From NCBI GenBank assembly GCA_021808425.1, contig JAKBBS010000053.1, forward strand, positions 1-18,002: a stretch of DNA of 18,002 bases, read 5' to 3'. Origin of the DNA: Actinomycetes bacterium. Lineage in GTDB: Bacteria; Actinomycetota; Acidimicrobiia; Acidimicrobiales; Palsa-688. The notes under the pieces are model-generated. The model was given only the letters and a program-made list of their open reading frames with translations, was not told the origin of the DNA and did no database searches. Position numbers and translations under genes: made by a program. The stretch's first letter is position 1. Each line of letters opens with the position of its first letter. Positions 3,085-16,108 of the stretch are shown piece after piece.

Positions 3085-4268
3085 AGCGGTTCTCCTTCGA
3101 GCGGCGAGGTCGTTTGGAGTGCCGAGGCGGCGCCGTGTGACCGACCAGCGAGCGAGTTCTCGCCCAGGCGGGGCGGGGCCAGCCGGTAGGTCGGCGGAGT
3201 GCTCGACATGCCAATCGGACTACGCGTGAGGTTCACCCTGGTGCCGTCCTCCCGGAATGTCGACACGATCGGCTGTAACCCGAGCTCAGCGGCCAGCTGA
3301 AAGGCCCCAGCCACGTCGTTGACTACCCCGGCCGGTATTCCTGCGGCGTTCAACGTCGCGACCCACACAGGTGCGCTTCGCCCAGCCAAAGCTCGTTCGA
3401 GCTCGACACGCAGCACCTCGCGGTGCGCTACCCGATCGGTGTTGGTCTCGAACCGAGAGTCGAGCGCCAACCTGGGCACGCCTATGGCCTCGCAGAGACG
3501 CGCGAACTGCAGTTCGTTACCGACCGCCAGGACGAGGTCGCCTTCTGCGGTCGGAATCACCTCGTAAGGGGCGATGCTCGGGTGCTCGTTGCCCATCCGA
3601 GTCGGGGTGACGCCGCCAGCGGTGTAGGCCGATCCCTGGTTGACGAGGGAGGCGAGCAGACAGGAGAGGAGGTTTACCTCGACATGCTGCCCTCGACCAG
3701 AATCGATTCTATAGCGGAGCGCAGCAAGTATTCCGATCGTTGCGAACAGCCCGGTGAGGACGTCTACGAGCGCCACACCCACCTTCTGGGGTCCACCGTC
3801 CGGCTCGCCAGTGATGCTCATTAGGCCGCCGAGCGCTTGCACCAGCAGATCATAACCTGCCAGCTCAGCCCCTCCGGCCCGGCCGAACCCGGTGACCGAG
3901 CAATAGACGAGGCGGGGGTTGATAGCTTCCAGGTGCCCGTAACCGAGGCCCAAGCGGTCCATCACTCCCGGCCGGAAGTTCTCGACAACGACGTCCGCGC
4001 TCTCGCAAAGAGCCGTGACCGAGCGAACGTCCGCTGCGTCGGTCAGATCGCTGACGTGACTCACCTTGTTGCGGTTGGCAGCCAAGAAATACGTAGCTTC
4101 GCCAGCACTGTCGTGGGGGGGACCCCAGGACCTCGTGTCGTCACCGGACCCCGGGCGCTCGATCTTGACCACCGTCGCCCCGAGGTCGCCGAGCACCATC
4201 GTGGCGTACGGCCCTGCGAGGACACGAGAGAAGTCCACGACGCGGACACCGTCAAGAGCACCTGCCAC
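3081..4268 (-). CDS. CaiB/BaiF family (class III) CoA-transferase
   Basis: A 395-residue class III CoA-transferase, which moves CoA from a donor such as succinyl-CoA to a carboxylate through an aspartyl-CoA anhydride. The N-terminal LDGVRVVDFSRVLAGPYATM, the VKIERPGSGD segment near 34-43 and the catalytic Asp169 in GVALVDVLTG are all present. The length matches the family. The same family includes succinyl-CoA:glutarate CoA-transferase (human SUGCT). With a glutaryl-CoA-dehydrogenase-like gene divergently transcribed next door, glutarate is the best guess for the acceptor, although CaiB-like proteins are notoriously varied. The start is GTG at 4268; the nearest purine-rich stretch (AAAGGA) is some distance upstream, so initiation may be weak or leaderless. 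A LacI-type operator sits about 20 bases upstream of the start codon. Confidence 0.92.
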   Translation of the reverse strand: MAGALDGVRVVDFSRVLAGPYATMVLGDLGATVVKIERPGSGDDTRSWGPPHDSAGEATYFLAANRNKVSHVSDLTDAADVRSVTALCESADVVVENFRPGVMDRLGLGYGHLEAINPRLVYCSVTGFGRAGGAELAGYDLLVQALGGLMSITGEPDGGPQKVGVALVDVLTGLFATIGILAALRYRIDSGRGQHVEVNLLSCLLASLVNQGSAYTAGGVTPTRMGNEHPSIAPYEVIPTAEGDLVLAVGNELQFARLCEAIGVPRLALDSRFETNTDRVAHREVLRVELERALAGRSAPVWVATLNAAGIPAGVVNDVAGAFQLAAELGLQPIVSTFREDGTRVNLTRSPIGMSSTPPTYRLAPPRLGENSLAGRSHGAASALQTTSPLEGEPL

Positions 4269-4289
4269 GAGAAGGCACTATCCTTTCGC

Positions 4290-4303
4290 TAGAAACGGTT
4301 CTA
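4290..4303. promoter_or_regulatory. LacI-type operator 1 in a divergent promoter
   Basis: The sequence TAGAAACGGTTCTA is a near-perfect palindrome centred on CG at 4296-4297, with one mismatched pair. The flanks add two more symmetric pairs (CG at 4287-4288 with CG at 4305-4306). The AAnCGnTT core is characteristic of LacI-family operators. It sits in the 72-base gap between the CoA-transferase operon and the acyl-CoA dehydrogenase operon, where a bound protein could control both. The same pattern recurs at 15874-15887 and, more weakly, at 15963-15976. I expect the regulator encoded at 8001-9065 to bind here. Confidence 0.72.
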
Positions 4304-4329
4304 CCGTATCTCAAGAACCCTCCCTAGTC

Positions 4330-4335
4330 AAGGAG
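4330..4335 (+). promoter_or_regulatory. Ribosome binding site for the acyl-CoA dehydrogenase
   Basis: AAGGAG lies five bases before the GTG at 4341 and fixes that GTG as the start of the acyl-CoA dehydrogenase. Confidence 0.75.
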
Positions 4336-4340
4336 CACAG

Positions 4341-5525
4341 GTGACGCCCACAGACGCTCGTAATGACCGAAACGCCAATGACTTCCTCGACATAGACCAC
4401 CTCCTGAGCGAGGACGAACGGGCCATCAGGGACGTCGTACGTGGTTTTGTAGCCAAGCGAATCCTTCCTGACGTCGCCGACTGGTTCGAGCGTGGTGGCA
4501 GCCCGCCCGAGCTGATGCAGGAGCTGGGGGCGCTCGGCGTCCTCGGCATGCATCTCGAAGGCTACGGTTGCGCCGGCACCACCGCCACGGCCTACGGCTT
4601 GGCGTGCCTCGAGCTCGAAGCCGCCGACAGCGGGATCAGGAGTCTCGTCTCGGTCCAGGGATCCCTCGCTATGTTTGCCATCCACCGCTGGGGCTCGGAG
4701 GAGCAGAAGAGAGAATGGCTGCCGCTTATGGCCGCCGGTGAGGTCGTTGGCTGCTTCGGGCTCACCGAGCCCGAGGCCGGCTCCGACCCCGGCGCAATGC
4801 GCACGAAGGCGCGGCGGGACGGAAGCGACTGGATCCTCAACGGTCAGAAAATGTGGATCACCAACGGCTCAGCCGCCGGCGTGGCGATCGTCTGGGCCCG
4901 CACCTCCGACGGGATCCGGGGCTTCTTGGTACCTAAGGGGACAAAGGGCTTCAGCACTCAGGACATCAAGAAGAAGATGTCCCTGCGAGCCTCGATCACT
5001 TCCGAGCTATTGTTCGACGACGTACGCCTGCCGGCCGCTGCCCAGCTGCCAGAGGCGACATCGCTCAGGGCTCCGCTGTCCTGCCTCGATGAGGCTCGCT
5101 TTGGGATTGTATGGGGAGCGGTCGGTGCGGCCCGGGCGTGCATGAAAGCAGCGCTCGATTACAGTCTGGGCAGGATGGTGTTCGAAAAGCCGGTTGCGGC
5201 TTTCCAGATCCAGCAGCAGAAGCTGGCTATTATGGCCCTGGAGGTCAACCGGGCACAGCTGCTGGCCCTCCACCTCGGCCGCTTAAAGGACGACAAGCGC
5301 CTCCGGCCCGAGCAGGTCAGCATGGGTAAGCTCGGCAACGTCAACTCAGCCCTCGAGGTCGTTCGTGCCGCCCGCCAGGTGCTCGGCGCGAACGGCATCT
5401 CCCTTGAGTACCCAGTCATCCGCCACCTTGTGAACCTCGAATCGGTGGTCACCTACGAGGGCACCGCTGACGTCCACGCCCTGGTCGTCGGTGGGGCGTT
5501 GACCGGCATCCCGGCATTCCGTTGA
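4341..5525 (+). CDS. Acyl-CoA dehydrogenase, glutaryl-CoA dehydrogenase-like
   Basis: A 394-residue FAD flavoprotein that follows human glutaryl-CoA dehydrogenase closely through its whole length. Shared landmarks include GYGCAG (74-79), CFGLTEPEAGSDP (138-150), WITNG, SLRAS, the segment CLDEARFGIVWG and the C-terminal NLESVVTYEGT. The catalytic base is Glu373 in TYEGT. The SGIRS segment with Arg100 matches the arginine that binds the distal carboxylate of glutaryl-CoA in that family, which favours a dicarboxyl-CoA substrate. Expected reaction: glutaryl-CoA to crotonyl-CoA plus CO2, with electrons passed to electron-transfer flavoprotein. Its stop overlaps the next start as TTGA. It is divergent from the CoA-transferase operon, with operator 1 between them. 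A non-decarboxylating or different dicarboxyl-CoA specificity remains possible. Confidence 0.9.
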   Translation: MTPTDARNDRNANDFLDIDHLLSEDERAIRDVVRGFVAKRILPDVADWFERGGSPPELMQELGALGVLGMHLEGYGCAGTTATAYGLACLELEAADSGIRSLVSVQGSLAMFAIHRWGSEEQKREWLPLMAAGEVVGCFGLTEPEAGSDPGAMRTKARRDGSDWILNGQKMWITNGSAAGVAIVWARTSDGIRGFLVPKGTKGFSTQDIKKKMSLRASITSELLFDDVRLPAAAQLPEATSLRAPLSCLDEARFGIVWGAVGAARACMKAALDYSLGRMVFEKPVAAFQIQQQKLAIMALEVNRAQLLALHLGRLKDDKRLRPEQVSMGKLGNVNSALEVVRAARQVLGANGISLEYPVIRHLVNLESVVTYEGTADVHALVVGGALTGIPAFR

Positions 5526-6553
5526 GCATCACCCGAGCGGCTGGACCACCCACCGCAGGCCCCACGAACGGCGTCGAACGCCGAGCCCTCGTCATCGACT
5601 GCGACCCGGGCATCGACGACGCTGTCGGATTGGCCCTGGCGGTCGCCAGCCCAGAGATCGACCTGCTCGCAGTCACCACCGTCGCAGGCAACGCCCCCCT
5701 GGCCGTTACTACGGCCAACGCTCGTGGCGTCCTGGCGCTGCTTGGCCGCCCTGACGTCCCGGTCTTCCCCGGCGCGGCCCGAGCACTGGTGCGCCAGAGC
5801 GCCCACAACCGGCGTTCCCCTCACGGCACGAACGGCATCGGGGGCGTCGACCTGCCGGCCGTCACTGCCGCTCAGTCCGGGGGCCGAGCGGTCGAAGCGC
5901 TGGCCAGGCTCCTTGGCGAAGCCCGGCCCCGGTCTATCGTAATCGCAGCGCTTGGCCCCCTCACCAACCTGGCCCTTCTAATATCCCTCTATCCCGAGCT
6001 GACCGATCGTATCGACCGGATCGTGGTCATGGGAGGCTCGATGTCGGCAGGCAACATTACGCCCGTTGCCGAGTTCAACACGTGGTTCGACCCCGAGGCC
6101 GCACAACGGGTCCTGGCCGATTCCGACCTCGACGTGACGACCGTGGGCCTCGACGTCACTCGCCTGGCCACAGTCGATGATGAGCTGGTATCCACCCTCG
6201 CCCGCCGAGGGGACGCCGGAGCGGCGCTCGCGTCGATGGTCACCGCCTATCTGGACCGGCGGCAGACCGGCTGGTCGTTGCACGATGTGCTCGCCGTGGC
6301 CACCGTCATCGAGCCGGCGATCGTTACCACCACCACTGCGACGCTCGAGGTGGTGGTAGCCGGGCCCGCACGGGGACAGACGATCTATGCCCTCGATGAG
6401 CTGCGGCACCGTTATGCCACCGACGATCCTGATGCCGATCCCCCCGACCAGAAGGTCCAGGTAGCGATCGATCTCGACATCTCGCGCTTTCGCCTCCTGG
6501 TCGCCGACAGAGTGGCGGCAGCGCGGCCACTCGAACGCACCGGGCGGCCGTAA
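5522..6553 (+). CDS. Inosine-uridine preferring nucleoside hydrolase family (IunH/RihA-like)
   Basis: A 343-residue nucleoside hydrolase, which cleaves the N-glycosidic bond of a ribonucleoside to base plus ribose. The calcium and ribose-binding DxDPGxDD signature is intact (Asp26, Asp28, Asp32, Asp33). NGIGG (105-109), VMGGSM (169-174), the EFN motif (184-186) and a C-terminal His254-Asp255 in SLHDVLAVA are also present. The start is TTG at 5522, overlapping the acyl-CoA dehydrogenase stop as TTGA. No in-frame ATG or GTG precedes the signature, so coupled initiation at TTG is the best reading. The first 20 residues are Pro/Gly/Ala-rich and probably disordered. It ends four bases from the convergent NTF2-like gene. 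Why a nucleoside hydrolase should be coupled to an acyl-CoA dehydrogenase is a key question here; together with ribokinase and PRPP synthetase in the window it could recycle ribose. Confidence 0.92.
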   Translation: MSITRAAGPPTAGPTNGVERRALVIDCDPGIDDAVGLALAVASPEIDLLAVTTVAGNAPLAVTTANARGVLALLGRPDVPVFPGAARALVRQSAHNRRSPHGTNGIGGVDLPAVTAAQSGGRAVEALARLLGEARPRSIVIAALGPLTNLALLISLYPELTDRIDRIVVMGGSMSAGNITPVAEFNTWFDPEAAQRVLADSDLDVTTVGLDVTRLATVDDELVSTLARRGDAGAALASMVTAYLDRRQTGWSLHDVLAVATVIEPAIVTTTTATLEVVVAGPARGQTIYALDELRHRYATDDPDADPPDQKVQVAIDLDISRFRLLVADRVAAARPLERTGRP

Positions 6554-6557
6554 CCCC

Positions 6558-6926
6558 CTATCCGAGGACTTTACGATATGTGTCCTTGGACCTGATACGC
6601 CCATCGTCGAATTCGAACACGTCGAGCGCCCGGATCACCGGAGTAGGCCGGTCGGGGTGGGTCGAGCGTGCCACCCAGTGGACTACCGCGAAATCATCGC
6701 CGATCCGGACCGCCAACGTCTCGGTGACGACATCCGGATCCGCAGGAGGCCCGAGGAACGACTCGACGCCACGTCTCACCTCGGAGGGACCCAAGTAGGT
6801 GCGTCCCGGGTCCGGCCCGACCGAGGCACTGAACGAGCACTTGGGGGCCATCAGATCCATGACACCGTCGATGTCACGGGCGCCCCACGCCTCGCCGAAC
6901 GCGTCAATCAACTGCCTGTTGTCCAC
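6558..6926 (-). CDS. NTF2-like / SnoaL-like small protein
   Basis: A protein of about 122 residues with the NTF2-like (SnoaL/DUF4440) pattern. It has an N-terminal helix with FGEAWGARDIDGVMDLMAP, then GPSEVRRGVESFL, then beta strands ending in the WVARS and FEFDDGRIRSKDTY segments. Members of this fold are small cone-shaped enzymes or binding proteins (isomerases, hydratases, cyclases), so no reaction can be assigned. I choose GTG at 6926 because AAGGGGG lies five bases ahead; an in-frame ATG at 6947 would make 129 residues. The long open frame continuing to 7520 is antisense-frame noise inside ribokinase. The gene overlaps the 3' end of ribokinase by about 23 bases, so it is probably translationally coupled. 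It closes the operon. Confidence 0.8.
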   Translation of the reverse strand: MDNRQLIDAFGEAWGARDIDGVMDLMAPKCSFSASVGPDPGRTYLGPSEVRRGVESFLGPPADPDVVTETLAVRIGDDFAVVHWVARSTHPDRPTPVIRALDVFEFDDGRIRSKDTYRKVLG

Positions 6927-8004
6927 TCCATCCCCCTTCCGGGCCATCGCAGGCGCTTTCGCCCACCATCTGTGTCCACCGGCCATCCTGCACAGCCGCG
7001 TCAATCGAGCCAGCGTCAGGCATGCCGTCCCGGGCGCCGGCACGCGAGACAGACAACGATGCGCCAGCGGCGGCGGCAGTGACGGCGGCGGCCAGGCCGT
7101 CCCCCCGAGCAATCCGGGCTCCGAGTATGCCGTTGAACGTGTCCCCAGCCCCGGTGGTGTCGACCACGATCGTCGGCGGGGGCGGGATCGTACGCCGGTC
7201 CCCATCTTCCTTGATGAAGAGAACTCCCTCGCCTCCCAGCGTGACGATGACCGGGGCTCCGGTACGTGCAGCCACCGAACGGGCCGCGCGCACCAATCCC
7301 TCCTCCCCTGGCCTCGCCACCTCTGGCGAGCCGTTGCTCCCCCCGGGCATCGAAGATCCAGCGACCGCAGCTGCGAGCGCCCAGCACTCGCTGACGTTAG
7401 GGGTGACGATCGGCCCGCAGGCAAGGAGGGAAGCGAGCTCGGCGACGACGGGTGCTGGATTGAGGACGCATGGCACGCCGGCAGCAGCGGCAGCCTCGAC
7501 GGCAGCGGCGATGGCCCCAACAGAGATCTCTGTGCTCACCACCACGCAACCGGCTCGGGGAATGGCAAGTCCGAGCGCAGCGCCGACGGCAACCGCGTCG
7601 AGCGCCACATTGGCGCCTGGTGCCACTGCGATCTGGTTCTCTCCCTCCGCCGAGACGACGATGAGGGCGACGCCGGTCGCCTCCCCTGCCAGAACCGTCA
7701 CGTCGTCGACGACAACGCCTTCCGCGGTCAGCTCGGCGAGGGCCCGCCTGCCGAGATCGTCATCGCCCACCGCACCGACCAGGCGAACCAGCGCACCCGC
7801 GCGGGCCGCGGCGACTGCGGCGTTTGCTCCCTTGCCACCCCCGTGGCGGGATAAACCACCACCCACCACGGTCTCACCCGGTCCGGGCAGGCGATCGGCC
7901 GCAACGACCAGGTCCACGTTGATCGCGCCGACAACCACCACCTCAAGGGGAGCGTCAGCCGGCTCGCGCGCCGCTGCGGCCACAGCCACATCGAGAGCGT
8001 TCAC
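6904..8004 (-). CDS. rbsK: Ribokinase (PfkB family)
   Basis: A 366-residue PfkB-family sugar kinase with ribokinase character. Landmarks are the VGAINVDLV strand (25-33), the sugar-binding GGGKGANAAV segment (55-64), and the anion-hole and catalytic motif DTTGAGD (282-288) with base Asp288. Expected reaction: ATP plus D-ribose to ribose 5-phosphate in the cytoplasm. It starts with GTG at 8004, overlapping the LacI stop as GTGA. The protein is longer than typical ribokinases of about 305 residues, with roughly 20 extra residues at the N-terminus and about 30 at the C-terminus. The C-terminal extra includes DNA shared with the NTF2-like gene start. Downstream of a nucleoside hydrolase product (ribose) and upstream of PRPP synthetase, it is well placed to recycle ribose. 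Another pentose or nucleoside substrate within PfkB cannot be excluded. Confidence 0.88.
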   Translation of the reverse strand: MNALDVAVAAAAREPADAPLEVVVVGAINVDLVVAADRLPGPGETVVGGGLSRHGGGKGANAAVAAARAGALVRLVGAVGDDDLGRRALAELTAEGVVVDDVTVLAGEATGVALIVVSAEGENQIAVAPGANVALDAVAVGAALGLAIPRAGCVVVSTEISVGAIAAAVEAAAAAGVPCVLNPAPVVAELASLLACGPIVTPNVSECWALAAAVAGSSMPGGSNGSPEVARPGEEGLVRAARSVAARTGAPVIVTLGGEGVLFIKEDGDRRTIPPPPTIVVDTTGAGDTFNGILGARIARGDGLAAAVTAAAAGASLSVSRAGARDGMPDAGSIDAAVQDGRWTQMVGESACDGPEGGWSGQQAVD

Positions 8005-9065
8005 CGGCGCACCTTCTTCGGAGCGGCCACCGATCCCCGGACCTGGACGCTGACGGGAAAGTACTCGTCCACCGGCTCCGATCCTTCTATCAGGTCGAGC
8101 AGCAAGTTGGCTGCACGGCGACCCATATCTCCAGCGGGCTGGCGGACGGTCGTGAGACGAGGCTGCAGGAGAGCCGCCAGGGGCAGGTCATCGAACCCCA
8201 CGATGCTGACATCACCGGGCACCGACAAACCGGCGGACCGGCAGAACTCCAGCGCACCTACGGCCATGAGGTCGTTGGCGCACAGCAACGCCGTCGGCCG
8301 TCGCCCAGCGGCACCGCGAAGGAGCTCCTCGGCAAGTACCGTTCCCGAGCCCTGCCGATAGTCACCCTCCGCGACAATCAGCTCGTCGGGGTCGAGCCCC
8401 GCCGAGACCATCGCGTCGCGATAGCCAGCCAAGCGCTCTCCGGCCGTCCACAGAGTCGATGGTCCGCCGACGACCGCCACACGTGTGTGACCTGCTGCGA
8501 GCACGAGCTTCGCGATCTCGCAAGCACCCCGTCGGTTGTCGGACACGACGCTCGGCACGTCGAAGCCGGGGATCCGCTCGTCGACGAGGACGACCGGCCC
8601 AACCTCGGTCAGCTGCCGCAGCGCTTCGACCGGAGCGGCGCTTCCCGCCAGGTAGAGCACACCGTCGAGACGTTGGCTACGCAGGAGCCGGCTGTTCGTC
8701 GAATCGGTCGTGCCCTCGAGATCCGGCGCGCACAGCACGACAAGCACGTCGCGCTTGGACGCCGCCCGCTCGACGCCCTCCGCCAGGAGTGCGAAGTACT
8801 GGTTGGAAAGGTCCGGCACGACCAACCCGATTGCCGCCGCAAAATCACCTCGCAGCTTCCTGGCCGCTCCGTTTCGCGTGTAGTTCAGCGCCTTGCAGGC
8901 AGCGAAGATTCGTTCCCTGCGTTCGGGCGCTACCGGCCCACTTTCGTTGAGCACATAGCTGACCGTGCTCACCGATACCCGGGCCCGTTCAGCGACGTCT
9001 TTGATGGTAGGCCGACGAAGCTTGGGGGGGGCCTTCTCTCCTCGAACCGGAACCCCGTCTCTCAC
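8001..9065 (-). CDS. LacI-family transcriptional regulator
   Basis: A 354-residue LacI/GalR-type repressor. The DNA-binding head reads TIKDVAERARVSVSTVSYVLN (about 20-40), followed by the hinge helix NGAARKLRG, where Leu71 is the residue that in this family wedges into the central CG step of the operator. The rest is a periplasmic-binding-protein-like sugar/purine sensor domain beginning IGLVVPDLSNQYFALLAEG. I choose GTG at 9065 because AGGGGAGGT sits nine bases upstream and 17 bases after the previous stop; a TTG at 9098 would add 11 residues. Its stop overlaps ribokinase as GTGA. The nearest matching operators have a CG centre (4290, 15874, 15963), so it probably controls its own operon and the divergent A/B promoter. 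The ligand is unknown; ribose or a nucleoside-type intermediate would fit the neighbours. Confidence 0.93.
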   Translation of the reverse strand: MRDGVPVRGEKAPPKLRRPTIKDVAERARVSVSTVSYVLNESGPVAPERRERIFAACKALNYTRNGAARKLRGDFAAAIGLVVPDLSNQYFALLAEGVERAASKRDVLVVLCAPDLEGTTDSTNSRLLRSQRLDGVLYLAGSAAPVEALRQLTEVGPVVLVDERIPGFDVPSVVSDNRRGACEIAKLVLAAGHTRVAVVGGPSTLWTAGERLAGYRDAMVSAGLDPDELIVAEGDYRQGSGTVLAEELLRGAAGRRPTALLCANDLMAVGALEFCRSAGLSVPGDVSIVGFDDLPLAALLQPRLTTVRQPAGDMGRRAANLLLDLIEGSEPVDEYFPVSVQVRGSVAAPKKVRR

Positions 9066-9074
9066 CCTGCCGAC

Positions 9075-9083
9075 ACCTCCCCT
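9075..9083 (-). promoter_or_regulatory. Ribosome binding site for the LacI regulator
   Basis: AGGGGAGGT on the minus strand lies nine bases before the GTG at 9065. It decides that start over the in-frame TTG at 9098. Confidence 0.65.
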
Positions 9084-9867
9084 AGACCACGCCGGCAAGG
9101 TCGACGCTTCCCGCCCAGAGCACTATGTTGCTCCAGAGGCGAGCGTAATGCGACCACTTCACGAAGCTCGGGGGCGCCCAATGCGGAGCGAGGTCGGAGG
9201 CGAATGCCACGGCTCGGCCTTCGCCGGCAGCGCAAGTGACGAGCAACGGATCACCGTCACATCGGGCGACGGTAGTGCTGCCCTCCTTGGCCACCAGCCG
9301 GTTGTACCCGAGCAGCGCCGGCCACGCCCCGGCCACGCCCCGGACGGCAAGATGCTCGGGTCGCTCCACTGTGACCCCTACACCTTCCGGCCGCTCCACG
9401 CGGTCGTCGTGGTCGAGCATGTCTACAGGCAGCACCTCGGCAAGCGGGCTGGCCTTGTATCTGGCCTTGCCGTCAATGCCCGAGAAAGAAAGGTAACCCC
9501 CGACCATCACGAGGCCACCACCGCCTCTGACATAGTCCGCAACGGCTGCCAGCCGATTGGCTGTCACCTCGGAACGGACAAATGTGGCGGGGCCGAGAAG
9601 GAACGAATTCGCGCCGACGTCACTGATAATGACCGTGTTGTATTCTTCCAATTGCTTTTTGGTCTCCGGGAACCGCGCGCCTATCTCGTGGGCCCGTATG
9701 TAACTGACATCGATGCCCTCGGAGCGAAGGGCCTCGATGAAGATACCGGCGCCCTCCTCATAGTCGCTGGTGGAGAAGGAGTCGAAGCCCTTCACGTGGA
9801 CGGTGTGCCTCATCCATGATTCTCCCACCAGGAGGACTCGAGCCGCCTTCTTGCCGTTGGTGCTCAT
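9082..9867 (-). CDS. Class I glutamine-amidotransferase-like protein without an evident catalytic cysteine
   Basis: A 261-residue protein resembling the 'putative glutamine amidotransferase' family (PF07090-like, cytoplasmic). The N-terminus has a Rossmann-like strand, RVLLVGESWM, followed by VKGFDSF. Near 114-130 there is a nucleophile-elbow-like region, RGGGGLVMVGGYLSFSG. In classical amidotransferases a Gly-x-Cys-x-Gly would sit here; this protein shows Gly-Tyr-Leu-Ser instead. Its only cysteines lie much later, in VARCDGDPLLVTC. It is therefore unlikely to hydrolyse glutamine in the usual way and may bind a ligand or use different chemistry. The ATG at 9867 follows a GAGGAG. An out-of-frame ATG four bases upstream sits closer to that site. 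It is in the middle of the operon, 17 bases before the LacI start. Confidence 0.7.
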   Translation of the reverse strand: MSTNGKKAARVLLVGESWMRHTVHVKGFDSFSTSDYEEGAGIFIEALRSEGIDVSYIRAHEIGARFPETKKQLEEYNTVIISDVGANSFLLGPATFVRSEVTANRLAAVADYVRGGGGLVMVGGYLSFSGIDGKARYKASPLAEVLPVDMLDHDDRVERPEGVGVTVERPEHLAVRGVAGAWPALLGYNRLVAKEGSTTVARCDGDPLLVTCAAGEGRAVAFASDLAPHWAPPSFVKWSHYARLWSNIVLWAGSVDLAGVV

Positions 9868-9968
9868 TCATGCTCCTCTCTGCGGTCCCACGCACCGACC
9901 CGTCGCCCTATTGCGGCGGCCGGCCAAAGCGTACCTCGCTGTCTCATTACCCTCTCCGATCCCTGCCG

Positions 9969-10487
9969 TCAGGGGATGAGCCGGTCGGTGAGAAAAGCCG
10001 GCAACGACCGGGCCTCTGGGACCGCCGGCATGGTGGTCTCGCGGGAATCCCAACCGATCATCTTCTTGATAGCAAGCTCGTGGTACCGGCGGCCGGCGAA
10101 GACCCCGAACTCAAAGTATTGCTCCGCGTAGGGATGCCCGACGTAGAAATATTTGTCGAAGACGAGCTGCTGGAGGCGCTCGACGTGTTTCGAGTCATCG
10201 ATCGGGACGAGAGAGCCGATGATGCGCACACCGTTGACCGTGACGAACTCGTCTCCTGCATCGACCAGGGCAGAGACCGGCCGTCCACTCGCAGCATTTG
10301 TGCCGTGCCGGCTGCCGGCGTCGAGAGGCAGGAAGATCCGGTTGTCGTCGGTCACATACCAGAGGGGGGTGAGGTAGATCTCGCCCCCGTCGCCGACTGT
10401 GGCAAGGCGGATTGTCCGATGTCGAGCCAGGTAGGCCCAAGCCTTGTCCCCGCGCAGGGGGTTGGTGACACTAGCAGTTATAGCCAT
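9969..10487 (-). CDS. FMN-binding split-barrel protein (pyridoxamine 5'-phosphate oxidase-like)
   Basis: A 172-residue protein of the PNPOx-like FMN/F420 split-barrel fold. The characteristic strand order is visible: RTIRLATVGDGGEIYLTPLW (25-43), then DNRIFLPLDAGSRHGTN with a flavin phosphate-type turn, then PVSALVDAGDE, and later VNGVRIIGSLVPI. Such proteins are flavin or deazaflavin-dependent oxidases and reductases, or flavin/haem binders. Actinobacteria have many F420-using versions, but the cofactor cannot be settled by eye. It starts nine bases after the cupin stop, so the two are probably cotranslated. As the only likely redox flavoprotein in operon C apart from what may lie outside the window, it is a candidate for reducing a modified ring. 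That role is inference. Confidence 0.82.
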   Translation of the reverse strand: MAITASVTNPLRGDKAWAYLARHRTIRLATVGDGGEIYLTPLWYVTDDNRIFLPLDAGSRHGTNAASGRPVSALVDAGDEFVTVNGVRIIGSLVPIDDSKHVERLQQLVFDKYFYVGHPYAEQYFEFGVFAGRRYHELAIKKMIGWDSRETTMPAVPEARSLPAFLTDRLIP

Positions 10488-10496
10488 TATCTGATC

Positions 10497-10952
10497 TCAC
10501 TTCCTCATCGACTTGAGCATTGCGCTGAACTCTGGGATCTCCACCAAACCATTGCGTTGGGATGGTCCGCTGGTCCAGAAGAAGGCCGAATCCACGCCTG
10601 TTTTCTCCAACGTGTAATGGTAACCACCAGGCAGGTAGATGTGCTCCCCGACAGACGCCTCATAGACCACTTCCCGGCTGTCGACGTCGCAAACCCGAAG
10701 CCTGATCTTACCCTTCAGCACGTAGTGGGTTTCGTCGAAGTCAGGCTGATCCCACGCGTAGGGCTCGTGTTCCGCTCCCGGATAGCAGATGCCCTGGCGA
10801 AAGTACCGGCAGTCATCAGCTTCACGCGAGAGGAAGATCGCCGTGTCGATGCCAGTATTGAACTGCAACCTCGGCATCTTCTCGATCTCGTCATCGGTGA
10901 TCACCCGGGGATACCGCCTCGCGTTCGGGGCGGTCGGGTCGTAGTCGGGCAT
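10497..10952 (-). CDS. Small cupin-domain protein
   Basis: A 151-residue single-domain cupin. Candidate metal ligands follow the two cupin motifs: His62 in PGAEHEP and Glu74 or His76 in FDETHYVLKG for motif 1, and His112 in LPGGYHYTLEKTG for motif 2. The first His-x-His pair is reduced to His-x-Pro, so metal binding may use three ligands. The ATG at 10952 has a strong AGGAGGT at 10963-10957. Cupins of this size serve as isomerases, small dioxygenases, or sensors, and no specific reaction can be read. It is the first gene of a four-gene block with the FMN protein, 85 bases after the PRPP synthetase stop. Confidence 0.85.
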   Translation of the reverse strand: MPDYDPTAPNARRYPRVITDDEIEKMPRLQFNTGIDTAIFLSREADDCRYFRQGICYPGAEHEPYAWDQPDFDETHYVLKGKIRLRVCDVDSREVVYEASVGEHIYLPGGYHYTLEKTGVDSAFFWTSGPSQRNGLVEIPEFSAMLKSMRK

Positions 10953-10956
10953 GGAT

Positions 10957-10963
10957 ACCTCCT
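10957..10963 (-). promoter_or_regulatory. Strong ribosome binding site for the cupin gene
   Basis: AGGAGGT on the minus strand lies four bases before the ATG at 10952. It is the strongest Shine-Dalgarno in operon C. Confidence 0.75.
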
Positions 10964-11037
10964 AGTTGTACATGAAGTTGCGGAGTGCAGAGGGCTGGCG
11001 GGTCGCCGGCTGAGCACCTCGAAAAAGAAGAAGCAGT

Positions 11038-12069
11038 TCAGAAGACCTGGTTTTGGCCGCGAAAGACCTCGCTCACCGAGTCGCAGGTGAAGATCCGCCA
11101 GATCGACTCCGCTAGGAGCCTGGAGCATGACAGGACCCTCACTTTCGGGTGGCCCCCGGGGCGCAACGGAATGGAGTCTGTGACAACGATTTCCTCGAAG
11201 GGTGAGTCATCGATGTTGTCGTAGGCAGCGCCACTGAACACGGGGTGCGTCGCTGCCGCGAAGACGCGGCGGGCCCCGGCTGCCATCACCGCCTCTCCTG
11301 CGGCTCGCAGCGTGCCAGCCGTGTCGATCATGTCATCGACGATGATCGCCGTCTTGTCCTCCACGTCACCTATGACATACTTGATCGCCGCGACCTGCTG
11401 TTGAGGCCTCTCCTTGTCAAGGATGGCCAGGTTCGCGTTAAGCAGGTTCGCGAACTTCTTGTTGAGCTTCACTCGTCCGGCGTCGGGAGCCACGACGACC
11501 AGTTCGCCATCCAGCCCGAGGCTCAAGAAGTGCTCCGTCAGCAACATCATGGCCGTCATGTGGTCCACGGGAACCTGGAACATCCCTTGGATTTGCCCGG
11601 CGTGCAGGTCCATGGTCAGGACGCGGTCGGCTCCGGCAGATTCCAGCATCCGAGCGACGAGGCGGGCCGAGATCGGCTCTCGGGGAGCAGCCTTCTTATC
11701 CTGTCGCGAGTATCCGTACCACGGTGCTACGGCGATCACCCTGTGGGCACTGGCTCCCACTGCGGCGTCGATCATGACGAGCAGTTCCATGAGAGCGCCG
11801 TTTGCGTCGAGTCCTGTCGTGACGTTCTTGCACATCGGTTGGATCAAGAACACGTCCGCACCGCGAACCGACTCCTCGAATCGACAGTAGACTTCCCCGT
11901 TGGAAAACGTCTTCTGCACGAGCGGCCCCAGGCCGCACCCGAGTTGACGACCGATAGCGTCGGCCAGGACGAGGTTGGAGCGTCCGGAGAACAGCGCCAG
12001 GCGGCGGTTGGGCCCGGAGGGAGAGCCGCCTGCATCGGTGACCTGCTGGAGAAGGGCGAGATCCGTCAT
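11038..12069 (-). CDS. prs: Ribose-phosphate pyrophosphokinase (PRPP synthetase)
   Basis: A 343-residue PRPP synthetase converting ribose 5-phosphate plus ATP to PRPP plus AMP. Visible landmarks are FSGRSN (27-32), FSNGEVYCRF (55-64), the flexible-loop segment YGYSRQDKK (118-126), DLHAGQIQGMF (154-164) with the catalytic-region His156, VVAPDAGRV (192-200), and the PRPP/ribose-phosphate loop VDDMIDTAGT (244-253). The N-terminus carries about 22 extra residues before the first strand. The ATG at 12069 overlaps the HAD phosphatase stop as ATGA, so the two are coupled. Bacteria have a housekeeping prs near glmU; this one sits beside a NAMPT-like gene and so is probably a dedicated, second copy. 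The nadV-prs pairing is known from phage and bacterial NAD-salvage islands. Confidence 0.94.
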   Translation of the reverse strand: MTDLALLQQVTDAGGSPSGPNRRLALFSGRSNLVLADAIGRQLGCGLGPLVQKTFSNGEVYCRFEESVRGADVFLIQPMCKNVTTGLDANGALMELLVMIDAAVGASAHRVIAVAPWYGYSRQDKKAAPREPISARLVARMLESAGADRVLTMDLHAGQIQGMFQVPVDHMTAMMLLTEHFLSLGLDGELVVVAPDAGRVKLNKKFANLLNANLAILDKERPQQQVAAIKYVIGDVEDKTAIIVDDMIDTAGTLRAAGEAVMAAGARRVFAAATHPVFSGAAYDNIDDSPFEEIVVTDSIPLRPGGHPKVRVLSCSRLLAESIWRIFTCDSVSEVFRGQNQVF

Positions 12070-12800
12070 CTGAGGTGTCCTGAGCGGGGCTTACAGCCTC
12101 GGGTGGCGGAACTTGCCGGCGGACTCAGTAGTCGGCGGCCAATCTGGTAGGCATCCCAGATGTCGTCGCCTTCGTACGAGGCCTCGGCCACCTCCAGCAG
12201 CCGATAAGTGCCGTTGACCGCCACGCTGTGTGCCAGCCGCCCGAACAGCGGGATGTCCGATGCCGAGTCGCCGTAGCCCACAACGTCGGTGTAATCGATT
12301 CCGAGCTCGCTCAAGAGACGTTCAACCACCTCGACCTTGCCCTCGGGCAGCAAAACGTCTTCTGGTCGCAGCGGGACGGCAGGGTGAACTCTCGCGCCGT
12401 AGGTCCGATCGAAGCCCCAAGCGAGGAGGTAGTCGACGAAGAACTGGGGCGACATCGAAATGACGCAGGACAGCTCGCCCCGAGAACGAATGTCAGCGCA
12501 CACCTCGCGGATGCCCTGGAGCCATGGCGAAGCTTCGACGACGGAGGCAACATCGGCGTCGTCAAGGTCCTCCCACAGGCCGAGGAGGAGCTCGTAGAAC
12601 TGCACGTGACCGACCTCACCACGCCCCCAGGCCTCCTCCGCCTCGAGGACCTCGTCGAGGCGACCAACGTGCCGGCAGAGCTCAAGACAGGCGGATCCGT
12701 TCAAGAGAGTGCCGTCCATGTCGAAGACGTGCAGCTTGACGGCTACCCCGGGAGTGAGGAAACCCTCACGCAAGGACGGAGCGTTGATGTGCGGCTTCAT
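12066..12800 (-). CDS. HAD-superfamily phosphatase, SerB-like (HAD-IB)
   Basis: A 244-residue haloacid dehalogenase-type phosphatase. The four motifs are complete: nucleophile Asp27 and general acid Asp29 in FDMDGTLL, Ser115 in VISMS, Lys155 in GKVEVV, and the Mg2+-binding GYGDSASD (175-182). The helical cap between motifs I and II is of the SerB/HAD-IB type. Substrates in this family range from phosphoserine to nucleotides and sugar phosphates, so sequence alone does not fix it. It lies between the NAMPT-like gene and PRPP synthetase and overlaps the latter by ATGA. A nucleotide 5'-phosphate made by the upstream enzyme, or a derivative, is therefore an attractive inferred substrate. The first 20 residues precede the catalytic strand and may be an overlong start; no better start codon is evident. 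Confidence 0.85.
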   Translation of the reverse strand: MKPHINAPSLREGFLTPGVAVKLHVFDMDGTLLNGSACLELCRHVGRLDEVLEAEEAWGRGEVGHVQFYELLLGLWEDLDDADVASVVEASPWLQGIREVCADIRSRGELSCVISMSPQFFVDYLLAWGFDRTYGARVHPAVPLRPEDVLLPEGKVEVVERLLSELGIDYTDVVGYGDSASDIPLFGRLAHSVAVNGTYRLLEVAEASYEGDDIWDAYQIGRRLLSPPASSATRGCKPRSGHLR

Positions 12801-12855
12801 GGTCGTGCGCTTTCAATGATCTGGGAAAGGGACTGGTTCGGGGTGCAAGCTCACC

Positions 12856-12873
12856 AGCCGTGGCCCCACGGCT
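12856..12873 (-). other. Strong hairpin between the NAMPT-like and HAD genes
   Basis: AGCCGTGG, two C bases, then CCACGGCT form a perfect inverted repeat (eight pairs on paper, seven with a four-base loop). It lies about 30 bases after the NAMPT-like stop on the minus strand. No run of U follows it, so it is not a standard intrinsic terminator. It could trim or stabilise mRNA, or partly attenuate transcription, so that the upstream pair (channel and NAMPT-like enzyme) is made at a different level from the rest of the operon. Confidence 0.4.
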
Positions 12874-12903
12874 AGGAACGGCACACCGGAGAGCCCCTGG
12901 GAC

Positions 12904-14358
12904 TTAGACCTGCTGCAGCTCGCCGGCCTTGAGCGGAGTGACGAACTCGTCGTAGTACGACTCGGGGACCGGCGCCTCACTGCGCTCGATGAGCTCGGTG
13001 AAGTCCCACTTGCGAAGCAGCTTTCCGTTGCGAAAGACGGGAACCAGGAGGTTCTCCGCTGCGGGAATGGAGCTGCGCGGGACGGTCTCGTAGTCACCGT
13101 TGACCCGCCGGAGAGCGAGACGACCTGGCTTCGAAACCTTGAAGGCGGCTCCGGTCGGAGACTTAGCAATATCTATCCACTTCCCGTTGATCTTCGCGGC
13201 GCTAGCCTTCTGGCCGAAATTCAAGGTGTCCCGGTTGCAATGCTGCAGGAGGCCGCCGCCCATGCCGAACACAGCGTTCTCCGCTGAGAGGCCGCGCCGC
13301 TTCATCTCTACATAGACCTCCTGCAGGCTGCTCAGCGTCATGCCGTCCCCTTGAACGACCCTGATGAACGGCGGTAGTACCTTGTAGCCCTTGCTGTTGG
13401 TCTCGAAGCCGAAGCTCTCCATCAGCCACTCCGTGGTATCAGAGGTGACCTGCACCGGGTCGCCGGAATCTGGGCGAGCACCGACCAGGCCGGGGAAGTT
13501 CTGGATCATCTCCTTCAACTCGCCACCGATGATGTTGCGGATGGCGTTCTCATGGTCGTAGGTGTCGGTAAGAAGGAGAGCTACACCGTTCTCGCGATAC
13601 ATCTCGAGCATGTTCCGCATCGCTGCGGCCTCGTTGTCCCGGCCCCAGGCACAGAAACCTGCGTGCTCGGAGTTGGGACCGGAGTTGGAGGGCGAGACGG
13701 CGTTGTAGAAACGCTTGGCAGCCAGGATCCCGGGGGTCGTGTCGCTCTGGCTGAAGTTGACTAGGTGGGCCATGCCGCCGAGCGCTGCCGACTGCTGGGA
13801 GCTGACGCCGCGGGCGCCGTAGTCGTGAAGCATGTGGCGCAGTAGCTCGGGATGGTCCGAGGTCTGCTCGAGGATCTCACGAATCATTTGCTTCGCCAGC
13901 CAGCTGATCGTACCGATGGTCGTCGGATACCAGACGGCTCGGAGCAGGGCTGTCTCAAAGAAGCTGGTCACCCAAAAGTACTTGGGGTCCGTGTTGATCA
14001 ACTGAACGAGGACGTTGCGAGTTGGTAGGACCGTGCCCTCGGGGACCGCCTCGATCTCCACCGGAAGGTACCCGCCGTGGTCGTTGAGCAGGCCGAGCCA
14101 ATTGTTCCGGTTGAAGTGCATGCCCTGCTCCCGGACATGGTACTCGGCCCGGTCGATGTCCTCCAGGGTGATAGGCCGCATCAGGTAGTCACGGATGAAG
14201 GCCTGGAGACCGACGAACATGGTCACCGGGAAGGCGCCGCCGCGAGATTCGATATAGCTGGAGATATACTCGGTACCTTGCGGATAGAGGGAGTAGTGGC
14301 AATGCTTATAGTTGTCCGTGTTAAAAATGATGTTGTCGAACTCGCCGCCAAGCGACAT
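12904..14358 (-). CDS. nadV: Nicotinamide phosphoribosyltransferase-like enzyme (NadV/NAMPT family)
   Basis: A 484-residue NAMPT-family enzyme, which joins a pyridine base to PRPP, giving the ribonucleotide and pyrophosphate. Alignment by eye with human NAMPT is continuous: DNYKHCHY, LPVEIEAVPEG (98-108), LHDYGARGVSSQ, AHLVNFSQSD, SEHAGFCAWG, ARPDSGDP and GGGLLQHCNRD. Key residues kept are Tyr17, Asp206 (human Asp219, which favours nicotinamide over nicotinate), phosphorylated-type His232 (human His247), Arg295 and Asp297 (human Arg311 and Asp313). The ring-stacking human Phe193 is Tyr180 here. The ATG at 14358 follows an AAAGGA. No nicotinamide-mononucleotide adenylyltransferase or Nudix regulator is visible nearby, so the substrate may not be nicotinamide itself. 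It follows the Amt-like gene by 79 bases. Confidence 0.93.
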   Translation of the reverse strand: MSLGGEFDNIIFNTDNYKHCHYSLYPQGTEYISSYIESRGGAFPVTMFVGLQAFIRDYLMRPITLEDIDRAEYHVREQGMHFNRNNWLGLLNDHGGYLPVEIEAVPEGTVLPTRNVLVQLINTDPKYFWVTSFFETALLRAVWYPTTIGTISWLAKQMIREILEQTSDHPELLRHMLHDYGARGVSSQQSAALGGMAHLVNFSQSDTTPGILAAKRFYNAVSPSNSGPNSEHAGFCAWGRDNEAAAMRNMLEMYRENGVALLLTDTYDHENAIRNIIGGELKEMIQNFPGLVGARPDSGDPVQVTSDTTEWLMESFGFETNSKGYKVLPPFIRVVQGDGMTLSSLQEVYVEMKRRGLSAENAVFGMGGGLLQHCNRDTLNFGQKASAAKINGKWIDIAKSPTGAAFKVSKPGRLALRRVNGDYETVPRSSIPAAENLLVPVFRNGKLLRKWDFTELIERSEAPVPESYYDEFVTPLKAGELQQV

Positions 14359-14437
14359 GGCTAAACGTCCTTTCGTGATCAGTCTCGGGGTGGACTTCGG
14401 TGGAGCCGGATTCTAATTTGGGCGCGCTGCCTCGCGG

Positions 14438-15898
14438 TCAGGTCTGTGTCTCAGCCATCGCCGAGCCAGGAGAGCCGAGCCCTTCGACGGCACCTTGGGT
14501 GATGGTTTCGCCTGGCAGGGCGCCCACTCCTCCGGGGGCATCGGTGTACGGTGAGGGCGGAGCTCCCCAGTAGGTCTCGTCCAGGCCGACGATTTCCTGC
14601 TTCTCTGAGACCCGCAGGCCGATGGTCTTGTCGAGACCGACGATCACGATCAGGCCGGTGACCGCGGAGATCAGTATCGTCACGCCGACGCCGATCGCCT
14701 GCCAGCCGAGGTTGATGGTGGCATGCTGGGGGGAGTAGGCGCCTTTGAGACCAAAGTAGCCGCCTGTCTTGGTACCCCAACCGACGATTCCCGAGATGAG
14801 AGCGGAGTAGATTCCGCCTCCTAGGGCCAGTGGGACGATCTTTTTGTCATCGATGCGAATGCGGTACATGAGCAAGAAGGTGCCGTAGACCACCACGGTC
14901 CCGCCGGCGGCGATCAGCAGGACCTGCCAGGGCCTGGCGATGTCGAGCGATGCACCTGCGCCGATGTACCCGGCTGCCGGGCCAAGCAGGATCATGATCG
15001 AGTTCTTAGTCCGGTAGGCGATTGCCACTCCGGCGAGTGCGCCACCGATGTAGGCCATGAAGATGTTCAGCAGGACGATGCCAAAGCCGCTCGTCGTGAG
15101 GGAGATGCCGAAGTAGCCGCTACCCGGAACGATGTAGCCGCACCCGAGGAAGGCGAACGGAGCAGCGAACATGAGGATCGCCACACCGAGCGCAGTCATG
15201 CCGAGGTTGTGCGGCACTGGTCCGATCGTGCGGTTATCGGCCTTGAACGCACCGAGGCGCGGACCGGCCCGCCATGCGATGATTAGGCCCCAGATTCCGA
15301 CAAAGATGTATAGGGAAAAGATTCCAATATAATCGTGGGTCCCTCGGTTCGTGAGCGGGCTCGTCGAACCCCAGGTGTAGTAGAGCAGCACCGGCACGAC
15401 AAGACCACCTGCGAGCGCCGAGATTATGTACATGGGAAGGGCCTTGACCCGTTCGAGACCTGCCGAATGCAGGAGCGCGCCCGCAACCGCGCCATAGGCC
15501 ATGAAGAAGGCCATGAACACCTGGAACGTGTCGGCGCTAGGCGACGTCGATGGATCCAAGTTCTGTGAGAACTTCGTGACGTTTGGCCCGAAAAGCCACC
15601 AGTCCTTGATGGCTTGGGTCACCGGGGAGGCGGTGCCAAAGGCTTCGTAGTATTGAATCTCCCATATGGCATACCCAATGACCGCCAGCGCACCTGCGCC
15701 GATCATAGAGCACACGAGCTTTTGGACCCAAGTGTCCAGAAGGTTCTTCCGCCGCACGAGGCCTGCGTCGATCAAGGCGATGGCCCCGACGACGAGAAGC
15801 AGGCAGACCGTGGCCAGGGCATAGAAGATGTCAGATTGGTACGACGCCCCCGTCACTTGTGCCGGGTGAAAACTAGAAACGATTCTACTCGATAGCAT
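14438..15898 (-). CDS. Amt/MEP/Rh-superfamily channel-like protein lacking the twin pore histidines
   Basis: About 486 residues and roughly eleven hydrophobic segments, matching the Amt fold. Shared landmarks with E. coli AmtB are DAGLVRRKN (44-52), Trp176, Asp189, PHNLGM (229-234) and the tail GLRVSEKQEIVGLD. Position-for-position from the conserved Asp, AmtB His168 becomes Tyr197. Counting from the DD pair, His318 becomes Leu359. The AmtB GFNAGSA segment becomes AFLGCG. The C-terminal HGE signature is WGA, and a Pro/Gly-rich tail of about 40 residues follows. It is therefore unlikely to be an ordinary ammonium channel. I start at ATG 15898, with AAAAGGGG four bases ahead; the longer frame to 16006 adds a non-hydrophobic stretch, and GTG 15856 is a shorter alternative. 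Operator 2 overlaps the first codons. Confidence 0.85.
   Translation of the reverse strand: MLSSRIVSSFHPAQVTGASYQSDIFYALATVCLLLVVGAIALIDAGLVRRKNLLDTWVQKLVCSMIGAGALAVIGYAIWEIQYYEAFGTASPVTQAIKDWWLFGPNVTKFSQNLDPSTSPSADTFQVFMAFFMAYGAVAGALLHSAGLERVKALPMYIISALAGGLVVPVLLYYTWGSTSPLTNRGTHDYIGIFSLYIFVGIWGLIIAWRAGPRLGAFKADNRTIGPVPHNLGMTALGVAILMFAAPFAFLGCGYIVPGSGYFGISLTTSGFGIVLLNIFMAYIGGALAGVAIAYRTKNSIMILLGPAAGYIGAGASLDIARPWQVLLIAAGGTVVVYGTFLLMYRIRIDDKKIVPLALGGGIYSALISGIVGWGTKTGGYFGLKGAYSPQHATINLGWQAIGVGVTILISAVTGLIVIVGLDKTIGLRVSEKQEIVGLDETYWGAPPSPYTDAPGGVGALPGETITQGAVEGLGSPGSAMAETQT
15874..15887. promoter_or_regulatory. LacI-type operator 2 at the head of operon C
   Basis: TAGAAACGATTCTA is a palindrome centred on CG at 15880-15881 with a single mismatched pair. 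It differs from operator 1 by one base. It lies at codons 4-8 of the Amt-like gene if that gene starts at 15898, or just upstream if it starts at GTG 15856. A repressor here would block initiation or elongation of the whole ten-gene operon. Confidence 0.72.
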
Positions 15899-15962
15899 AC
15901 GTCCCCTTTTTTGGTTGAGCGACTTTCCCCCCGCGGAACCGTCTGGCAACCAAGGTCTGCGG

Positions 15963-15976
15963 TAGAACCGATTCTG
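15963..15976. promoter_or_regulatory. LacI-type operator 3, weaker copy
   Basis: TAGAACCGATTCTG keeps the GAAnCGnTTC core, centred on CG at 15969-15970, with two mismatched pairs. Its centre is 89 bases from that of operator 2. Paired operators about 90 bases apart around a promoter recall lac O1/O3 looping, so the operon C promoter probably lies between them. I could not pick convincing -35 and -10 boxes in this stretch. Confidence 0.55.
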
Positions 15977-16101
15977 GCCCACCTCGGAGGGAATGTCAAG
16001 GCGCAACTGCCGCCTGTTGCCCTGGCTAGGCCCGTGCAGCTGGGTCGCTCCCAGGTGCGGCGTGATCCGGGGGGTCCTACCGAAGGCGTCTGCTTGATGG
16101 T

Positions 16102-16108
16102 GGAGGGG
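16102..16108 (+). promoter_or_regulatory. Ribosome binding site for aat
   Basis: GGAGGGG lies eight bases before ATG 16117. This supports that ATG over the TTG at 16114 and the later in-frame ATG at 16132. Confidence 0.6.

Follow-up and report, generated by a model that had tools for sequence, protein, structure and literature searches.

Two bacterial routes of pyridine breakdown were reportedly distinguished by Watson and Cain in 1975, one in Bacillus ending in succinate semialdehyde and formate, the other in Nocardia ending in glutaric dialdehyde. Unsubstituted pyridine is a poor target for oxidation and reduction alike, and to our knowledge the first attack on it by aerobic bacteria is still largely unsettled. 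This article deals with a gene cluster on an 18,002-nucleotide stretch of DNA from an Actinomycetes bacterium (Acidimicrobiales, Palsa-688; assembly GCA_021808425.1, contig JAKBBS010000053.1, positions 1 to 18,002, forward strand), hereafter called the window. In it, a phosphoribosyltransferase resembling nicotinamide phosphoribosyltransferase (NAMPT) is encoded beside a phosphatase, a nucleoside hydrolase, a ribokinase and a synthetase of 5-phosphoribosyl 1-pyrophosphate (PRPP). Related clusters occur in two forms, named here types A and B. It is probable that they tag pyridine with a phosphoribosyl group, after which the ring would be reduced with F420H2 (type B, to which the window belongs) or attacked by flavin monooxygenation (type A), the ribose finally returning to PRPP.

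Several described systems come close. The cluster enzyme shares its family with the NAMPT/NadV enzymes that salvage nicotinamide adenine dinucleotide (NAD), and its conserved residues imply the same PRPP chemistry. It differs in forming a separate clade with another base pocket, in having no NadM-type adenylyltransferase nearby, and in its neighbours, which are phosphatase, nucleosidase, ribokinase and catabolic genes. Trigonelline is N-methylnicotinate, a quaternary N-methyl pyridinium, and its degradation (Tgn) uses a two-component flavin monooxygenase, TgnA/TgnB; there the nitrogen is already quaternary, while type B clusters, including the window, have no such monooxygenase. By description, the gene content of type A fits the pyrA-E set reported for the pyr cluster of Arthrobacter sp. 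68b (Casaite et al. 2020), but that route reportedly begins with free pyridine and is not known to give a role to a phosphoribosyltransferase; of six plasmid records that matched at 60% or more, none was that of 68b. The Bacillus and Nocardia endings of 1975 match types A and B, respectively, although neither genes nor ribonucleotide intermediates are known to have been part of that work. Finally, the F420-dependent catabolism of picrate and other nitroaromatics uses Npd hydride transferases. The likeness, drawn from description and not from sequence, lies in a hydride passing from F420H2 onto an electron-poor ring during catabolism; there nitro groups withdraw the electrons, whereas here that part would fall to N-ribosylation, with a split-barrel protein as the candidate enzyme.

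The shared core and its two ring modules

A pattern scan of one genome per species, covering 84,980 species, found 67 loci with a NAMPT-like gene, mostly 73–85% identical and carried by Pseudonocardia, Rhodococcus, Williamsia, other Actinomycetota and some proteobacterial genomes. Among plasmid records 54 matched, 12 of them at 60–80% identity (11 from Rhodococcus and one from Arthrobacter crystallopoietes), and a nucleotide search of Escherichia coli genomes gave no match. The comparison set of 74 loci is made up of the 67 genomic loci, 6 of these 12 plasmid records and the window; near-identical loci are counted separately, among them L068/L072, L016/L017, L059/L064/L080, L015/L018 and L070/L071. 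Type B, defined by a pair of genes for a cupin and a split-barrel protein, comprises 34 loci; 18 are type A, and of the rest, many of them cut by contig ends, 7 are marked A? or B? and 15 are unclassified.

The ring modules of the two types are different. Type A loci (n = 18) encode an LLM luciferase-type monooxygenase (17), an aldehyde dehydrogenase (16), a NIPSNAP protein (14), a tautomerase (12), an amidohydrolase (11), a flavin reductase (8) and a succinate semialdehyde dehydrogenase (5). Beyond the defining pair, type B loci (n = 34) have aldehyde dehydrogenases (24), a coenzyme A (CoA)-transferase (14) and a glutaryl-CoA dehydrogenase-like gene (10). The luciferase-type monooxygenase and flavin reductase are absent from the window and found in its type A relatives only, and at the thresholds used the two modules were together in none of the 74 loci. 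Both are joined to one core, consisting of a HAD phosphatase (17/18 type A, 31/34 type B), PRPP synthetase (17/18, 28/34), ribokinase (17/18, 25/34), a GATase1-like protein (18/18, 32/34) and a LacI-family regulator (16/18, 31/34). The comparison supports the proposal, made in the earlier note on this DNA, that the base changes chemically while it carries the ribose. The split-barrel protein and the cupin were among the ring-altering candidates named there; so was the amidotransferase-like protein, the GATase1-like protein of our list, which was rejected in this role because it belongs to the shared core. Since more distant cupins are also encoded at some A or A? loci (e.g., L027, 12601-12978; L061, 4320-4778), it is the cupin/split-barrel pair, and not any cupin, that marks type B. 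The pair is tandemly duplicated in L009 (7795-9914), L062 (7797-9913), L070 (12777-14891) and L071, which looks as though both proteins act jointly.

Such recurrence in dozens of loci, spanning many genera of Actinomycetota and Proteobacteria, is more than chance proximity. The NAMPT-like gene was found in 2 of 396 genomes of a phylum sample (both already among the collected loci, one being the sample's centre) and in 22 of 60 genomes of Pseudonocardia, the genus of L013, in up to four copies when both of its subfamilies are counted; this patchiness points to an accessory trait and not to housekeeping. When the type labels (A? and B? included) are placed on the NAMPT tree, 10 changes are needed, and 11 if A is set against all others, 7 of them forced by well-supported branches; the counts are rough, the tree coming from a quick search in which SH-aLRT was the sole measure of support, with some branches long and many forks weak. 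A core that is kept while its ring modules are repeatedly swapped would be expected if both modules use the same tagged intermediate. The genes form a genuine catabolic module, one that recurs and has spread horizontally, and comparative support for the tagging idea, as far as sequences can give it, is strong.

Type A provides the only link with a phenotype. Pyridine can be the only source of both carbon and nitrogen for Rhodococcus sp. PD04 (PMC11256795), whose 528-kb plasmid carries a type A module and the core, beside an FdhF/YdeP-family gene and an FdhD gene; this is a correlation, in the single strain with a measured phenotype. Rhodococcus pyridinivorans IEGM 1137 is reported not to grow on pyridine (PMC10005059), which would bear on this link only if that strain has the plasmid. 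When residues 180–364 of the type A monooxygenase served as query, 75 proteins were found. Two of these (76 and 65% identical) bear the source name "flavin-dependent trigonelline monooxygenase, oxygenase component," and most of the remaining 73 are generically named or nameless. In common with type A, Sinorhizobium meliloti pSymA and a Burkholderia multivorans plasmid have a related luciferase-type monooxygenase (29–31%), a flavin reductase and an aldehyde dehydrogenase, joined in Sinorhizobium by NIPSNAP and succinate semialdehyde dehydrogenase genes; the six core enzymes tested had no match at either locus. Our guess is that these are trigonelline loci. Like flavin modules without the core suggest that the core makes the needed cation from neutral pyridine.

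The same evidence bears on the idea that free pyridine is opened directly and that the core is accessory, serving for instance in detoxification or with a cofactor. Direct cleavage, as Casaite et al. 2020 reportedly found it for PyrA/PyrE of Arthrobacter 68b, would favor this, yet at least four of the five core genes accompany wholly different ring-opening genes in 16/18 type A and 26/34 type B loci, the type A monooxygenase has two relatives whose name refers to trigonelline, an N-methyl pyridinium, and similar flavin modules do occur without the core; we consider an accessory core unlikely. No likelier is it that the route is right but normally serves some other azine or a pyridine with substituents (picoline, aminopyridine, or a plant or marine pyridine). 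That genomes can have several NAMPT copies along with a second subfamily does suggest several substrates, and the pyridine phenotype comes from one host only, carrying type A. However, the route would end at an amidohydrolase and a succinate semialdehyde dehydrogenase in type A, by inference C4 + C1, and at a C5 glutaryl-CoA dehydrogenase in type B, and both sums fit an unsubstituted five-carbon ring. Pyridine is the most likely substrate of the cluster.

The NAMPT-like enzyme and NAD salvage

A fully supported branch in a tree of 79 NAMPTs parts 71 catabolic from 8 canonical sequences (five short fragments were left out of the alignment, and L072 out of the tree as well as the last count of pocket residues). 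Residues were mapped on chain 6tac in human NAMPT numbering, 63 core sequences being compared with the 8 canonical ones, a small set. The catalytic, ribose- and phosphate-binding positions are those listed in PMC3665594. Those tested were Asp16, Arg196, His247, Asp279, Arg311, Asp313, Gly353, Asp354, Gly383 and Gly384; nine are identical across 63/63 core and 8/8 canonical sequences, and the tenth, Gly384, is kept in 62/64 core and 6/8 canonical sequences. The base pocket behaves otherwise. Of 11 nicotinamide-site and tunnel positions, as given in a second source (PMC10526665), five are near-invariant with residues absent from the 8 canonical sequences: Phe193Tyr (63/63), Val242Gly (60/63), Ser275Leu/Ile (63/63), Ile309Gly (61/63) and Ile351Val (63/63). 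The same holds for 52 of 463 columns overall (P = 0.004, not blind, as the residues had been inspected once before the pocket list was consulted), and the position of Ser275 is alanine in 4/8 canonical NAMPTs. Ala244Asn and Gly217Gln are also present in 63/63 core sequences, whereas Tyr18, His191, Asp219 and Arg349 are unchanged in all 63. What these residues indicate is an altered pocket, not which base is bound.

A second NAMPT group, about 56–64% identical to the enzyme of the window (L023, L027, L033, L035, L009, L056, L049–L051, L070 and L071), adjoins the first in some loci and perhaps serves other substituted pyridines.

Seven chosen canonical NAMPT loci, five from plasmids and two from phages, served as controls with flanks of 6–8 kb (the 1907 phage NAMPT records, all below 60% identity, were treated as canonical). 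At the same thresholds none of the catabolic-cluster genes was found in them. In five of the seven, a nicotinamide mononucleotide (NMN) adenylyltransferase/Nudix gene lies a short way upstream of NAMPT; in the remaining two, the gene beside it is for a PRPP synthetase or a different phosphoribosyltransferase. The five NadM-type adenylyltransferases of these controls, the one type of adenylyltransferase used, were taken as BLAST queries; they match one another and give weak matches to the Nudix part only in the other two controls. In the 74 loci, window included, they found no NMN adenylyltransferase, against 5/7 controls (Fisher P = 8e-7; like all P values on loci or genomes here it is indicative only, the species being related and relatedness ignored).

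These data speak against NAD salvage, in which NAMPT, PRPP synthetase and phosphatase would recycle nicotinamide and the other genes would be accidental neighbors. In its favor, the NAMPT homologue scores above the NCBI family cut-off, two of the controls likewise have a gene for PRPP synthetase or a different phosphoribosyltransferase next to NAMPT, and Asp219, Tyr18 and Arg311 are retained. Nevertheless, no NadM-type adenylyltransferase was matched outside the controls that supplied the queries, the enzyme forms a separate clade with an altered pocket, its distribution is rare, at times multi-copy and plasmid-borne, and phosphatase and nucleosidase would reverse the salvage, which makes this explanation quite improbable. 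The earlier note had judged plain NAD salvage an incomplete explanation and had reckoned that relatives with an NMN adenylyltransferase and without a link to the hydrolase or aldehyde dehydrogenases would tell against a catabolic role; the opposite was found, type B loci having the hydrolase in 22/34 and aldehyde dehydrogenases in 24/34 cases. Ordinary ribonucleoside catabolism lying by chance near an unrelated aromatic or aldehyde pathway, for which the CytR/UriR/RbsR-like regulator and the RihC-family resemblance of the hydrolase might be cited, was rejected as hardly credible, because the set recurs too often, tied to NAMPT, PRPP synthetase and either ring module across many genera.

Coenzyme F420 and the split-barrel protein

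Genes for F420 synthesis accompany type B. FbiC, CofC or CofE is encoded within 11/34 type B and 0/18 type A loci (P = 0.005). Typed type B examples scored above NCBI cut-offs for CofG and CofH domains, CofC, CofE/FbiB and PGL; for F420-dependent glucose-6-phosphate dehydrogenase 4 of 5 tested did so, the fifth reaching 417 vs. 420, and the fused CofGH model was missed by 20 bits (998 vs. 1018). CofD is present in L024 and L063, and a 6-phosphogluconate-dehydrogenase-like gene in L080.

The link extends to whole genomes, where FO synthase (CofG, TIGR03550 above cut-off) was sought for all type A, B and B? loci with a genome at hand. It is present in 32/33 type B or B? genomes (21/21 and 11/12) and in 10/14 type A genomes (3/7 and 7/7), being absent in L004, L008, L014 and L058. 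The background for hosts outside Actinomycetota comes from class samples that leave out the focal genome: the gammaproteobacterial B/B? hosts (L009, L015, L018, L044 and L062) have FO synthase in 5/5 cases vs. 6/142 (P = 9e-7), and the named alphaproteobacterial ones (L024 and L063) in 2/2 vs. 23/141 (P = 0.03). It is also present in a metagenome-assembled genome (MAG) of type B/B? labeled only Proteobacteria (L034). These hosts are more telling for the F420 link than the contrast between A and B genomes. Among 29 other CofG-bearing sample genomes none has the NAMPT-like gene, one having a 46% homologue.

In a Foldseek search, the structure nearest to the split-barrel model was Rv2991, and the best 50 matches mix the F420-bound Rv2074, MSMEG_6526 and Rv1155 with heme and flavin proteins. 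As the fold is ambiguous, the role of F420 is read from genome context; F420H2, which the earlier note had not considered, is the likeliest cosubstrate of the split-barrel protein.

Some type B clusters also adjoin sugar-phosphate genes: a transaldolase and a phosphoglucose isomerase in L080 (6457-9415) and L024 (3962-7123), and an F420-dependent glucose-6-phosphate dehydrogenase with a phosphogluconolactonase in L001 (13452-15551). These genes could draw the supply of F420H2 from released ribose.

The window, the proposed route and its significance

Pfam and NCBIfam scans bear out all genes named in the earlier note, at the positions it gave, among them the PRPP synthetase, NAMPT-like, HAD, nucleoside hydrolase and ribokinase genes, and in the last three the translations show motifs to be expected of such enzymes. 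The genes of the window are as follows.

164..1591, minus strand: aldehyde dehydrogenase 1 (PF00171, 504 bits; NCBIfam cut-offs unmet among the 25 families listed)
1618..3084, minus strand: aldehyde dehydrogenase 2, closest to alpha-ketoglutaric semialdehyde dehydrogenases (PF00171, 504 bits; top NCBIfam 506 bits vs. cut-off 770)
3081..4268, minus strand: class III CoA-transferase (PF02515; top NCBIfam succinate--glutarate CoA-transferase, 367 bits vs. cut-off 750)
4341..5525, plus strand: glutaryl-CoA dehydrogenase family protein (by solved-structure matches; NCBIfam cut-offs unmet)
5522..6553, plus strand: IU-type nucleoside hydrolase (PF01156, 277 bits; DCDPGIDD motif)
6558..6956, minus strand: SnoaL/NTF2-like protein, start not fixed (PF12680, 58 bits)
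6904..8004, minus strand: ribokinase-like PfkB kinase, ribose to ribose 5-phosphate (PF00294, 171 bits; TIGR02152, 229 bits, below cut-off 300; GAGD motif)
8001..9098, minus strand: LacI-family regulator, CytR/UriR/RbsR-like (Pfam and NCBIfam scans)
9082..9867, minus strand: GATase1-like protein (PF07090, 322 bits; solved relatives STM1381, 3soz, and 2gk3)
9969..10487, minus strand: split-barrel (PNPOx-type) protein (PF01243, 41 bits; model confidence, pLDDT, 83.8)
10497..10952, minus strand: small cupin (weak Pfam cupin matches under cut-offs; model pLDDT 85.9, cupin fold)
11038..12069, minus strand: PRPP synthetase (NF002320, 365 bits, above cut-off 297)
12066..12800, minus strand: HAD-IB phosphatase (TIGR01488, 61 bits, above cut-off 45; FDMDGTL motif)
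12904..14358, minus strand: NAMPT-like phosphoribosyltransferase (NAMPT_N and NAPRTase domains; NF006629, 518 bits, above cut-off 405)
14438..16006, minus strand: ammonium-transporter-family protein, encoded upstream of NAMPT (PF00909, 128 bits)

Four adjacent gene pairs overlap by 4 bases (5522/5525, 12066/12069, 8001/8004 and 3081/3084), as in operons. The CoA-transferase, possibly of the succinate-glutarate type, matches the solved structures 10uh (formyl-CoA transferase, 309 bits), 4ed9 (CaiB/BaiF, 309 bits) and 9br7 (succinate--hydroxymethylglutarate CoA-transferase, 274 bits). For the dehydrogenase at 4341..5525, the best ten solved relatives score 344–545 bits, nine being named glutaryl-CoA dehydrogenase and one acyl-CoA dehydrogenase; the top chain is 3sf6 at 545 bits, and the next family reaches 231. 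In NCBIfam, where all its scores lie under cut-off, acryloyl-CoA reductase (226 bits) stands above glutaryl-CoA dehydrogenase Acd (196). Five of the 74 loci (the window, L002, L043, L045 and L048) have an ammonium-transporter-family gene, which fits release of the ring nitrogen. Rfam and tRNA scans of the window found nothing.

Two further observations concern the surroundings of related clusters. A thiC gene (phosphomethylpyrimidine synthase) lies near the cluster in L068 (2242-3999) and L072 (2244-4001), both Rhodococcus plasmids, and in L025 (5719-7623, Methyloligella), hence in two unrelated lineages, perhaps because pyridine or its nucleotide disturbs thiamine synthesis. The gammaproteobacterial L009 has, at 532-1898 and 14269-17256, an extra molybdenum-hydroxylase-type FAD subunit with CoxG, and a glycine dehydrogenase adjoining the second NAMPT.

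We infer the substrate and every reaction of the route, in an account whose gene content, conservation, module exchange, pocket change and F420 linkage are observed. The NAMPT-like enzyme would couple the ring nitrogen with PRPP to give a cationic N-(5-phosphoribosyl)pyridinium, from which the HAD enzyme would strip the phosphate before or after ring reduction. In type B, the split-barrel protein and its partner cupin would use F420H2 to turn the pyridinium into a dihydropyridine; the enamine of this product would then be hydrolyzed and the ring opened. The resulting C5 chain would pass from glutaraldehyde through glutarate semialdehyde, glutarate and glutaryl-CoA to crotonyl-CoA in the hands of the two aldehyde dehydrogenases (the first, 164..1591, is proposed as a candidate for oxidizing glutaraldehyde or glutarate semialdehyde), the CoA-transferase and the glutaryl-CoA dehydrogenase. 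Ribose and nitrogen would be released by the nucleoside hydrolase or by spontaneous hydrolysis; ribokinase and PRPP synthetase would rebuild PRPP from the ribose, and the Amt-like protein may handle the ammonium. In type A, the same tagging core would precede a flavin enzyme resembling trigonelline monooxygenase, which would open the ring by flavin peroxide attack, leading to formate and succinate.

A number of points weigh against this account. The chief one is that in Arthrobacter 68b the enzymes PyrA and PyrE reportedly cut free pyridine directly (Casaite et al. 2020), which would make tagging needless in type A. The one strain with a known pyridine phenotype, PD04, carries type A, unlike the window; its source paper names no genes, and no nucleoside hydrolase lies within 15 kb of NAMPT on its plasmid. 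That hydrolase is found in just 8/18 type A and 22/34 type B loci, and among type B loci the glutaryl-CoA dehydrogenase is restricted to 10/34 and the CoA-transferase to 14/34. As for F420, the window itself has none of its genes, the split-barrel fold fails to distinguish F420 from flavin or heme, the contrast in FO synthase between 32/33 B/B? and 10/14 A genomes is modest (P = 0.02), and FO synthase is missing from a type B genome, that of L002, which is a MAG of 1.5 Mb. Lastly, the amide of nicotinamide is bound by Asp219 (PMC10222582); with the nicotinamide-contacting Asp219, Tyr18 and Arg311 all kept, the enzyme may still be able to use nicotinamide.

Among the matches listed in open-licence full-text literature, no title describes ribose-tag breakdown of pyridine; subscription papers lie mostly outside that collection, and earlier publication is possible. 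With somewhat less assurance than for the tagging of pyridine itself, we favor a general strategy in which phosphoribosyl is a recyclable handle on inert N-heteroaromatics. The N-ribosyl pyridinium would then be a common node, from which reduction with F420H2 leads to glutarate, or oxidation by a flavin peroxide to formate and succinate, some clusters bringing their own F420 synthesis and a glucose-6-phosphate-driven supply of F420H2 tied to the ribose pool. If this is true, the annotation "nicotinate phosphoribosyltransferase" on such plasmids would be corrected, and the NAMPT fold and coenzyme F420 would both gain new catabolic roles. A reusable ribose tag would stand beside CoA-thioester formation as a new kind of substrate activation, and tagging as a general strategy would account for the two pyridine routes that have been known since the 1970s.

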